DNA of 64,000 bases, taken from Salvelinus alpinus (taxonomy: Eukaryota; Chordata; Actinopteri; Salmoniformes; Salmonidae). A program made the translations under genes and the position numbers. Shown piece by piece: positions 7,501 through 16,500 of the stretch. How positions within the stretch are numbered: the stretch's first letter is position 1; each line of letters opens with the position of its first letter. The stretch covers positions 13,505,043 to 13,569,042 of the forward strand of contig NC_092122.1 in assembly GCF_045679555.1 (NCBI RefSeq), written 5' to 3'. The notes under the pieces are model-generated. The model saw only the letters and a list, made by a program, of their open reading frames with translations. It ran no database searches and had not been told where the DNA came from.

Positions 7501-10500
7501 AATGGCCAAGACTAGAGAGCTGTGTAAGGACATCAGGGATAAATTGTAGACCTGTACAAGGCTGGGATGGGCTACAGGACAATAGGCAAGCAGCTTGGTG
7601 AGAAGGCAACAACTGTTGGCACAATTATTAGAAAATGGAAGAAGTTCAAGATGACGGTCAATCACCCTCGGTCTGGGGCTCCATGCAAGATCTCACCTCG
7701 TGGGGCATCAATGATCATGAGGAATGTGAGGGATCAGCCCAGAACTACACGGCAGGACCTGGTCAATGACCTGAAGAGAGCTGGGACCACAGTCTCAAAG
7801 AAAACCATTAGTAACACACTACGCCGTCATGGATTAAAATCCTGCAGCGCACGCAAGGTCCCCCTGCTCAAGCCAGCGCATGTCCAGGCCCGTCTGAAGT
7901 TTGCCAATGACCATCTGGATGATCCAGAGGAGGAATGGGAGAAGGTCATGTGGTCTGATGAGACAAAAATAGAGCTTTTTGGTCTAAACTCCACTCGCCG
8001 TGTTTGGAGGAAGAAGAAGGATGAGTACAACCCCAAGAACACCATCCCAACCGTGAAGCATGGAGGTGGAAACATCATTCTTTGGGGATGCTTTTCTGCA
8101 AAGGGGACAGGACGACTGCACCGTATTGAGGGGAGGATGGATGGGGCCATGTATCGCGAGATCTTGACCAACAACCTCCTTCCCTCAGTAAGAGCATTGA
8201 AGATGGGTCGTGGCTGGGTCTTCCAGCATGACAACGACCCGAAACACACAGCCAGGGCAACTAAGGAGTGGCTCCGTAAGAAGCATCTCAAGGTCCTGGA
8301 GTGGCCTAGCCAGTCTCCAGACCTGAACCCAATAGAAAATCTTTGGAGGGAGCCGAAAGTCCGTATTGCCCAGCGACAGCCCCGAAACCTGAAGGATCTG
8401 GAGAAGGTCTGTATGGAGGAGTGGGCCAAAATCCCTGCTGCAGTGTGTGCAAACCTGGTCAAGAACTACAGGAAACGTATGATCTCTGTAATTGCAAACT
8501 AAGGTTTCTGTACCAAATATTAAGTTCTGCTTTTCTGATGTATCAAATACTTATGTCATGCAATAAAATGCAAATTAATTACTTAAAAATCATACAATGT
8601 GATTTTCTGGATTTTTGTTTTAGATTCCTTCACTCACAGTTGAAGTGTACCTATGATAAAAATTACAGACCTCTACATGCTTTGTAAGTAGGAAAACCTG
8701 CAAAATCGTCAGTGTATCAAATACTTGTTCTCCCCACTGTATATGGTGGCACATTGTTCTCTATGGGGCGATACAGCTATATGGTGGCACGCTGTTCTCT
8801 ATGGGGAGATACAGCTATATGGTGGCACGCTGTTCTCTATGGGGAGATACAGCTATATGGTGGCACGCTGTTCTCTATGGGGAGATACAGCTATATGGTG
8901 GCACACTGTTTTCTATGGGGAGATACAGCTATATGGTGATACACTGTTCTCTATGGGGAGATACAGCTATATGGTGGCACACTGTTCTCTATGGGGAGAT
9001 ACAGCTATATGGTGGCACACTGTTCTCTATGGGGCGATACAGCTATATGGTGGCACGCTGTTCTCTACGGGGCAGTCGCAGAGCAAATCACTGGTTCATT
9101 TATTTCACACAGAAATAAATGTAGAATAAGAATTTGTTCTTAACTGACTTGCCTAGTCAAATGAAGGTTCAATTAAATGAATTATAAAATACAAATATTT
9201 CACCCAGATGTAGACAGACCCAGGTTTTGGTGTAAACATTTCAACATTCTACAATTCTAAACTCAGCAAAAAAAGAAATGGCCCTTTTTCAGGACCCTGT
9301 CTTTCAAAGATAATTTGTAAAAATCCAAATAACTTCACAGATCTTCATTGTAAAGGGTTTAAACACTGTTTCCCATGCTTGTTCAATGAACCATAAACAA
9401 TTAATGAACATGCACCTGTGGAACGGTCTTTAAGACACTAACAGCTTACAGACGGTAGGCAATTAAGGTCACTGTTATGAAAACTTTGGACACTAAAGAA
9501 GCCTTTCTACTGACTGAAAAACACCAAAAGAAAGATGCCCAGGGTCCCTGCTCATCTGTGTGAACGTGCCTTAGGCAAGCTGCAAGGAGGCATGAGGACT
9601 GCAGATGTGGCCAGGGCAATAAATTGCAATGTCCGAACAGTGAGACGCCTAAGACGGCGCTACAGGGAGACAGGACAGACAGCTGATCGTCCTCGCAGTG
9701 GCAGACCACGTGTAATAACACCTGCACAGGATTGGTACATCCGAACATCACACCTGCGGGACAGGTACAGGACGGCAACAACAACTGCCCAAGTTACACC
9801 ATGAACGCACAATCCCTCCATCAGTGCTCAGACTGTCCGCAATAAGCTGACAGAGGTTGGATTGAGGGCTTGTAGGCCTGTTGTAAGGCAGGTCCTCACC
9901 AGACATCACCGGCAACAACGTCGCCTATGGGCACAAACCCACCGTCGCTGGACCAGACAGGACTGGCAAAAAAGTGCTCTTCACTGACGTGTCGAGATTT
10001 TGTCTCACCAGGGGTGATGGTCGGATTCGCGTTTATCGTCGAAGGAATGAGCGTTATACCGAGGCCTGTACTCTGGAGCGGGATCGATTTGGAAGTGGAG
10101 GGTCCGTCATGGTCTGGGGCAGTGTGTCACAGCATCATCGGACTGAGCTTGTTGTCATTGCAGACAATCTCAAAGCTGTACGTTACAGGGAAGACATCCA
10201 CCTCCCTCATGTGGTACCCTTCCTGCAGGCTCATCCTGACATGACCCTCCAGCATAACAATGCCACCAGCCATACTGCTCGTTCTGTGTGTGATTTCCTG
10301 CAAGACAGGAATGTCAGTGTTCTGCCATGGCCAGTGAAGAGCCCAGATCTCAATCCCATTGAGCACATCTGGGACCTGTTGGATCGGAGGGTGAGGGCTA
10401 GGGCCATTCCCCCCAGAAATGTCCGGGAACTTGCAGGTGCCTTGGTGGAAGAGTGGGGTAACATCTCACAGCAAGAACTGGCAAATCTGGTGCAGTACAT

Positions 10501-13500: not shown

Positions 13501-16500
13501 GAAGGTGAGAGGGTGAGGTCAAAAGAGGAGAGGAGTGGAAAGAAGGAGGCAGAGAGGAATGAGTCAAAGGTAGACGTGGGGAGGTTAAAGTCACCCAGAA
13601 CTGTGAGAGGTGAGCCATCCTCAGGAAAGGAACTTATCAAGGCGTCAAGCTCATTGATGAACTCTCCAAGGGAACCTGGAGGGCGATAAATGATAAGGAT
13701 GTTAAGCTTGAAAGGGCTGGTAACTGTGACAGCATGGAATTCAAAGGAGGCGATAGACAGATGGGTCAGGGGAGAAAGAGAGAATGTCCACTTGGGAGAG
13801 ATGAGGATCCCAGTGCCACCACCCCGCTGACCAGAAGCTCTCGGGGTGTGCGAGAACACGTGGGCAGACGAGGAGAGAGCAGTAGGAGTAGCAGTGTTAT
13901 CTGTGGTAATCCATGTTTCCGTCAGTGCCAAGAAGTCGAGGGACTGGAGGGAAGCATAGGCTGAGATGAACTCTGCCTTGTTGGCCGCAGATCGGCAGTT
14001 CCAGAGGCTGCCGGAGACCTGGAACTCCACGTGGGTCGTGCGCGCTGGGACCACCAGGTTAGAGTGGCAGCGGCCACGCGGTGTGAAGCGTTTGTATGGT
14101 CTGTGCAGAGAGGAGAGAAGAGGGATAGACAGACACATAGTTGACAGGCTACAGAAGAGGCTACGCTAATGCAAAGGAGATTGGAATGACAAGTGGACTA
14201 CACGTCTCGAATGTTCAGAAAGTTAAGCTTACGGTGCAAAAAATCTTATTGACTAAAATGATACAGTACTGCTGGCTGGTGAAGTAGGCTAGCTAGCAGT
14301 GGCTGCGTTGTTGACTTTGTTTGAAAGTGTAGCTGGCTAGGTAACCTCGATAACTGGCTAGGTAACCTCGATAACCTCGATAATTACTCTAAACTACACA
14401 TTTTATCTTTGATACAAAGACGGCTATGTAGCTAGCTAAGAAAAAATTGCTAAGATCAAACAAATCAAACCGTTGTACTGTAATGAAATGAAATGAAATG
14501 TAATACTACCTGTGGAGCGAAGCGAAATGCGACTACTCGCTCCAACCCGGAAGTGAACTACTTCAGTACTTAGTACTTAATGCAGCTGGTGGCCACACCA
14601 GATACTGACTGTTACTTTTGATTTTGACCCCCCCTTTGTTCAGGGACACATTATTCCATTTATGTTAGTCACGTCTGTGGAACTTGTTCAGTTTATGTCT
14701 CAGTTGTTGAATCTTATGTTCATACAAATATTTACACGTTAAGTTTTCTGAAAATAAACGCAGTTGACAGTGAGAGGACATTTCTTATTTGCTGAGTTTA
14801 CGTTCAATATGCAAGCAATATATAAGATGAAGTTTGTTATTTTTTCCATATTAAAATATCGACAGTATAATGTATGTGAGAATAAAATAGAAATGTTTAT
14901 GAATTTGCTGAATTTCATTCCCATAGTTGGGGATGTCAATGTCTTGGGCAGAGTGTTATACAGGCTAATTAATGATCCCTCTCGTGTGTGTGTGTGTGTG
15001 CAGTGTGTGGGTGTATTTGGTGTGCAGGAACCCCTCACCCGTCTGCAGTCCTTTTCAAATGGGGTCCTCTCTTTGTGTGCTCCCCTCAGCTCCCTTTCAG
15101 GTCCCCACGCCAGGGCCCAACAATCAGAGGGTGACCCCAAGGCGACCCCTCATTGAGCATCATCTCCAGAGTGTAACTGTCCTTGACAATGGAGCGGGAC
15201 GCTGGCCTATTGTGGTGCCCTGCCTGGCCTCTCCACCACCCAGACCCAGGGCACCACCCAGCCTTTCAGCCCCACGGTGTGGCCAGAGTGGGGGGACAGG
15301 GGGGGTACATGGGGACACAGAGGAGCCTTGTCTGGGCTGACTCCTTCCTGCCCTGCCTGGCCTTGCCCCTACGCCCCCCTATCCACCAACACCACCGCCC
15401 TGACTCAGTAGCACTCCTCAGAATGAAGGCTGACTTGACAGCAGCAATATGCTTTAAAGTGTCAAGTCAAGTCCCTCCATTGTCTCTCTGAGTAGAGAGC
15501 CGAGGCACTGGAATGCACAATGGTGTGTGTGTGTGTGTGTGTGTGTGTGTGTGTGTGTGTGTGTGTGTGTGTGTGTGTGTGTGTGTGTGTGTGTGTGTGT
15601 GTGTGTGTGTGTGTGTGTGTGTGTGTGTGTGTGTGTGTGTGTGTGTGTGTGTGTGTGTGTGTGTGTGTGTCGTCAGATGTAAAGGAGCTGAGTTTGTGTG
15701 TTTTTTATTTGCGTGTGTATATATTATGTGTGTCTGCTATCTGTTTTACATGTCCATACGAGAGAAGAAGAGCTCATTCTCTAAGGCTGTCATCGTGACA
15801 GAAACCCTCAGCACACCATTTTCAGTTACCGTTACAAAAAAAGGCAAAGAAAGCAGGTGTGTTTTGACTGTTTTGAGAAGAGTCAAGTAAAGAGTGATTT
15901 AAGGGCGGACGTTTGGCCTATCCTGTGAGTGAGGTATGTGGTAATGAGGGCTTAGAGGGAGAGCATTGCTCCTGTGTGTATAGTAGCATCTCCCGTAGCC
16001 CCAGGGTCTGACTGGCTCTGTGTAGGCTGACACAGACTCCACCTGGGGGGGCATCCTCTCCCGTGGAGGTCCTGGTTTGGTGGTGGGGTGGAGGGTTGAT
16101 GACACCGGCTCAGGGCAAGGAGGAATGGGAGTTTGCTGGGTGTCTGGGTGAAGTGTGTGTTTGTTGTGTGTGCATGGGTATGATACCAAGCCGTCTCTGT
16201 GAAGCCTAGAGGGGACAGGCAGTCAGGGACTAATTGAGTTACAACCAGGTGTTGGAACCAGTTCAGGGAGCAGCGAAAACCCATTTTTCCTTTAGAGGAA
16301 TGGAAACAGAACCGGGAAAGAAAGGGATCTCTAGTGTTGCGGAACAGAACCGTTACTTTTAAATCTTGAACCAGTTAATAATGTAATAATGTAAATTTTT
16401 GATCACATTTTTTCCCCCTAATGTCTAGTATATATTGTAATTCTGTAATTCAGTGAAGTTATGATGCTAGTAATAGCATAAACATATTCCAATTCACATC

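Follow-up and report, generated by a model that had tools for sequence, protein, structure and literature searches.

A Tc1-like transposon, a UnaL2-type LINE and an A-tailed SINE nested inside one another in the genome of Salvelinus alpinus

Within a stretch of 64,000 nucleotides of the Salvelinus alpinus genome (contig NC_092122.1; G000:C37:13505043-13569042, in the following the window) we found three transposable elements nested inside one another. A long interspersed element (LINE) on the minus strand lies within a Tc1-like DNA transposon, and a short interspersed element (SINE) lies within the LINE. All boundaries were read directly and confirmed by a coordinate check (Table 1), and unfilled sites exist in the searched genome (2.37 Gb) for all three layers, so that chance is excluded. 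The three-layer nest is confirmed as genuine, and with it the three layers and all boundaries that the original prediction had named from the duplications and the TA ends, now with unfilled sites for each layer. We are almost certain that three independent insertions took place one after another at the same place, the Tc1 first, then the LINE and finally the SINE. Every insertion would have been made at this locus, with no composite moved into it.

Table 1. Positions of the nested elements and their parts in the window.
Feature	Position	Strand	Evidence
Tc1-like DNA transposon, split by the LINE	9258..14800	+	TA at both ends; + strand transposase broken
Tc1 left part, including one LINE target copy	9258..10523	+	9 of 9 Tc1 copies align over at least 90%
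LINE target-site duplication, left, ACTTCAGTAC	10514..10523		direct reading and coordinate check
LINE tail (ATTTAC)n	10521-10546	+ (strand of reading)	Tandem Repeats Finder (TRF)
UnaL2-type LINE, probably of the L2 clade	10524..14559	-	UnaL2 Rfam match; endonuclease and RVT_1 Pfam matches
UnaL2 LINE 3' element (RF00436), 3' stem-loop region	10543..10596	-	Rfam 67.4 bits, cut-off 55
LINE reverse transcriptase, downstream part	10690..11928	-	RVT_1 3.2e-28
SINE target-site duplication, left, AAGAAGGTCATTCT	11917..11930		direct reading and coordinate check
A-tailed SINE, 497 bp including tail, promoter-box-like head (by eye)	11931..12427	+	boundaries and copies
SINE target-site duplication, right, AAGAAGGTCATTCT	12428..12441		direct reading and coordinate check
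Upstream part of the LINE reverse transcriptase, open as far as the SINE	12443..12916	-	open frame 12916-12401; alone no Pfam match
LINE endonuclease open frame, 430 codons	12876..14165	-	Exo_endo_phos 2.6e-10, Exo_endo_phos_2 3e-7
G-tract where endonuclease and reverse transcriptase frames part	12889..12899		frame comparison
Tc1 right part, opening with the right-hand target copy, then the additional AGTACTT	14560..14800	+	7 of 9 Tc1 copies align over at least 90%
LINE target-site duplication, right, ACTTCAGTAC	14560..14569		direct reading and coordinate check

The outer Tc1 begins and ends with TA (9258-9259 and 14799-14800). Its inverted terminal repeat (ITR) is short, spanning 16 nt with the TA included and being 94% complementary, and it carries the AACT end directly after the TA (ends AACTCAGC). 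Pfam detects the transposase as HTH_29 (8.5e-10, 9514-9801) and DDE_3 (3.4e-12, 9887-10606), and because these two matches fall on separate open frames, the gene is broken. A paralogous region on C11, which is probably the ohnolog, matches both flanks of the Tc1, with 86.8% and 91.3% identity in the two left pieces and 88.5% over 2.2 kb on the right. This region possesses a single TA and no Tc1, giving the unfilled site aattcTAcattcag: it reads aattcTAcattcagtatgcag where the window has aattcTA, then the Tc1, then TAcgttcaatatgcaag. The Tc1 must therefore have inserted at one TA once the two regions had diverged. Next to the unfilled site, at a distance of 17 bp from the position equivalent to 14801, C11 (L068/L063) carries a repeat of another kind, about 1.8 kb long. 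The other Tc1 copies measure 1458-1487 nt between the markers used, and the 4 of 9 in which both ends were found are flanked by TA on both sides.

The LINE comprises 3525 bp once the SINE and one copy of its target are subtracted, with the 3' end at 10524 and the 5' end near 14555, beyond which stand a few additional bases. Its target is present unsplit in all nine Tc1 copies (seven of the nine by a stricter pattern). The UnaL2 3' element was also found in four of the five other loci scanned, the exception being a locus on C9 (L029) to which we return below. For the other end, 24 of 31 distal 5' pieces of other LINE copies stop at positions equivalent to 14553-14559 of the window, and three fetched copies end at 14554-14555, each beside a different flank, showing that the LINE reaches the 5' end of its family and is full-length there. 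In two of these three fetched copies (L070, L071) the 5' untranslated region (UTR) contains repeat units of about 203 bp, an array that is contracted in the window (14330-14555). We also noted that, among the LINE copies L031-L059, 9 of the 18 truncated ones end within 20 bp of one another at the window equivalent of 13105-13124; the truncations of L056 and L057 look like a single event. The fold at this truncation cluster is no stronger than that of shuffled sequences (z = -0.01).

The unsplit target of the inner SINE was found in 29 of 29 LINE copies. For the SINE itself, all 40 scored genomic copies were reported at about 100% identity. Its head contains TGGCGCAGTGG and GGTTCGCGCCC, which by eye look A-box-like and B-box-like, respectively; ARAGORN reported 0 tRNA genes in the window. 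All 20 further SINE copies that we fetched carry A-rich tails. From the 16 of these with an exact duplication of at least 12 bp we built a target matrix, from which L021-L024 were omitted because their query contained the target and so drew similar flanks. Fourteen of the 16 targets begin with AA and 13 have T or C in front, and by this matrix the window site ranks 43rd of 7024 LINE positions. Three features suggest that the SINE very probably relied for its movement on L1-like machinery and not on its host LINE: the tail is A-rich, the target-site duplications measure about 15 bp and open with AA behind a T or C, and the Rfam scan detects no UnaL2 element within it. The nick preference of such machinery is for AA-rich targets. 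We also noticed that 14 nt of the SINE (12217-12230) are identical to the sense-strand 5' end of the LINE (14540-14553), which may be chance. OS-SINE1 with its 5S rRNA head and SlmI with its RSg-1 tail, as far as the excerpt of PMC3747384 describes them, are unlike the nest SINE. Literature searches that included OS-SINE1, SlmI/SlmII and a 17-letter piece of the SINE head gave no name for it.

The insertion left a clear mark on the reading frames of the LINE. The SINE together with one target copy amounts to 511 bp, which is 1 mod 3, and a translation that retains the SINE meets 18, 13 and 22 stops in its three frames. When 11931-12441 is omitted, as the original prediction had proposed, the translation of 12772-10687 gives 525 codons in which the sole stop is the terminal one (524 open codons plus the stop). 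The expected open frame is thus obtained, and the SINE, which had been called frame-restoring, in fact breaks the frame. A second break, missed earlier, lies at the G-tract between the endonuclease and the reverse transcriptase. In 29 other LINE copies this tract leaves a remainder of 2 in ten, 1 in ten and 0 in five, and it was not found in four; the window has 0. Among these copies, four, each with remainder 2, have an open frame of 913 codons that runs to the end of the sequence fetched, which shows that intact copies of the LINE exist. The claim that the LINE was nearly intact when hit is therefore partly supported: the endonuclease and, without the insert, the reverse transcriptase are open, and the 5' end is that of the family, but the two parts stand in different frames at the G-tract and the 5' UTR array is contracted. 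It holds for the reverse transcriptase half, while the change at the G-tract may predate or postdate the SINE.

The order of events is mirrored by the divergence of the layers, measured by the number of sites at which the window departs from the majority sequence of related copies, which were selected because they are similar. We used 9 copies for the left and 7 for the right part of the Tc1 (the latter taken here as 14558-14800), 29 and 12 for the LINE, whose middle part is covered by 12 of the 29, and 8 for the SINE. The Tc1 shows 35/1266 plus 4/229, together 39/1495 differences, the LINE 13/1408 plus 6/1159, together 19/2567, and the SINE 1/455, so that divergence drops inward from Tc1 to LINE to SINE. 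The difference between Tc1 and LINE is significant (P = 3e-6), showing the Tc1 to be the older of the two. Ten of the 19 LINE differences are variants common to part of the family. At sites where all or all but one of the other copies agree, the LINE differs at 9/2567, and at sites where all other copies agree, the Tc1 differs at 16/1495.

Several observations weigh against this picture or restrict it. The divergence of LINE and SINE differs in the expected direction, but not significantly (P = 0.34), so the SINE-last step rests on the nesting itself; of the predicted order, the step from Tc1 to LINE is therefore backed by the counts and the step from LINE to SINE follows from the nesting. The comparison copies are those ranked most similar, which biases the counts. 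Next to the right LINE duplication stands the extra 7-bp tandem repeat AGTACTT, which is absent from all nine Tc1 copies; it could have arisen by slippage as the LINE inserted, or it could be an earlier change that the window Tc1 alone carries. For the target matrix, the AA start of the SINE duplications is partly built in because the As of the tail lengthen the match, and 4 of the 20 SINE insertions had to be dropped for want of an exact duplication of at least 12 bp. Finally, excision and reinsertion of a composite Tc1 leaves no donor behind, so that the uniqueness of the junctions leaves room for composite movement.

This last point leads to the alternative that fares best, in which a Tc1 copy received the LINE elsewhere in the genome and carried it to the present locus in a later jump. 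No second Tc1-LINE junction was found. The 5' junction of LINE and Tc1 has one match genome-wide when up to 2 mismatches are allowed, and the 3' junction is spanned by 1 of 40 scored matches, which is the window itself; among the matches examined, the nest was thus not copied as a unit. Unique junctions are nevertheless compatible with a composite jump, since cut-and-paste leaves no second, donor copy. Against such a jump speaks that the Tc1 copies lie 26-45 substitutions from their majority in 1266 positions (9 copies; the window has 35) while the LINE copies lie 0-16 from theirs in 1408. With more substitutions in its copies, the Tc1 seems to have had its burst before that of the LINE, and this earlier burst had probably ended when the LINE arrived. 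Moreover, the transposase of the window Tc1 is broken into several frames, although a helper copy could still act in trans. We consider the composite jump very unlikely and retain three separate insertions at this locus.

A further scenario arises from a second SINE. When the whole genome was searched by pattern for the SINE head following the LINE target, exactly two loci had the SINE at this LINE site and in this orientation, the window and C9:19827233, and 2 of 40 scored matches in a separate search have it. At C9 (L029, G000:C9:19822300-19832200) a SINE of the same subfamily sits at about 4456-4955 on the minus strand, at the same base as in the window. Such a pair could have arisen if the SINE had entered a master LINE and both had later been copied as one. 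The two SINEs, however, are 98.5% identical while their LINE flanks are just 80% and 74% identical, and the duplications are separate, AAGAAGGTCATTCT in the window and AAGATCGTTCTG at C9, each matching its own LINE; in addition, none of the 29 close LINE copies carries a SINE at this position. The unequal identities and the separate duplications rule out copying of the LINE-SINE pair as a unit, and we give this scenario practically no credence. The third scenario, an assembly artefact joining unrelated repeat copies, has just as little in its favour: the three families are high-copy with near-identical copies, which is where assemblers fail, and the genome was searched as given, but random misjoins would not yield a proper target duplication at every junction and an unfilled target in the expected host element.

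The unequal identities at the two loci rather show two separate, parallel insertions at a favoured target, the C9 one in an old LINE copy. By the target matrix the C9 target scores 6.7 and that of the window 4.2. With two independent, base-exact SINE insertions seen, one may tentatively ask if the SINE lands repeatedly at this position of the LINE reverse transcriptase gene, where exact repeats in paralogous LINE copies are possible, an idea that we regard as rather doubtful. SINE insertions are usually taken as free of parallel events. If the idea were true, parallel insertions in paralogous LINEs could pass for shared ancestry when the paralogues are confused. The parallel insertion itself is a minor warning when SINEs serve as markers of descent, and it displays the target preference of the SINE.

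Taking three successive insertions at this locus as the preferred reading, the nest was most likely built as follows. A Tc1 with a short ITR would have entered a TA by cut and paste. Through target-primed reverse transcription, a full-length UnaL2-type LINE of a young burst would then have entered the end of the transposase gene of the Tc1, creating the 10-bp duplication. Lastly, the A-tailed SINE, also by target-primed reverse transcription, would have inserted at a preferred AA-rich target within the reverse transcriptase gene of the LINE, which would account for the 14-bp duplication and the one-base frame shift.

In the surroundings, a Pfam scan of nine open frames gave nothing named near the nest, so that the intron in which the original prediction placed it is putative. 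Farther away, two exon matches to Itfg2 were obtained on the + strand (55101-58488, Pfam scan), and a 421-codon open frame on the - strand (59568-60830) resembles a hAT transposase by eye, with no Pfam match at 0.01. A 38-bp minisatellite occupies 4659-7133 and 8740-9072; it also occurs in the paralogous region on C11, and the window copy is split by 7134-8739.

The Tc1, the LINE and the nested arrangement can be set beside known systems. For DTSsa5, a Tc1-like element of Atlantic salmon, the table in PMC2198921 (de Boer et al. 2007) gives a TA target, an ITR end AACT, an ITR of about 18 bp and a length of about 1440 bp; the Tc1 described here agrees in the TA, the AACT end, the short ITR and the length, a likeness of table features and not of sequence. 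Salmonid UnaL2-type LINEs, SalL2 and RSg-1, are listed in a table of PMC3747384, and the window LINE resembles elements of this type, as outlined there, in its UnaL2 3' element, its short-repeat tail and its endonuclease and reverse transcriptase. It differs in the tail unit, which is the 6-bp ATTTAC (+ strand) in the window in contrast to the TGTAA given for UnaL2 in that source. Nests of this type are already known, and ours is ordinary in kind and well documented here. It matters little as a single nest, ordering three repeat families in one salmonid genome; it does provide a worked example in which each boundary has an unfilled counterpart in the same genome to test it against. The TinT and interruption analyses of nested repeats, as the excerpts of PMC3014933 and PMC2517846 present them, order transposon activity by who interrupts whom, and they do so as genome-wide statistics, whereas here we read one single nest. 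A three-level nest in salmon is presented in PMC2198921 (2007), where it was used for ordering. Like ours, it is a salmonid nest three insertions deep, and its innermost copy belongs to the youngest branch. According to that account, one transposon type was involved throughout, whereas the nest in the window combines a DNA transposon, a LINE and a SINE, and with them three movement systems.

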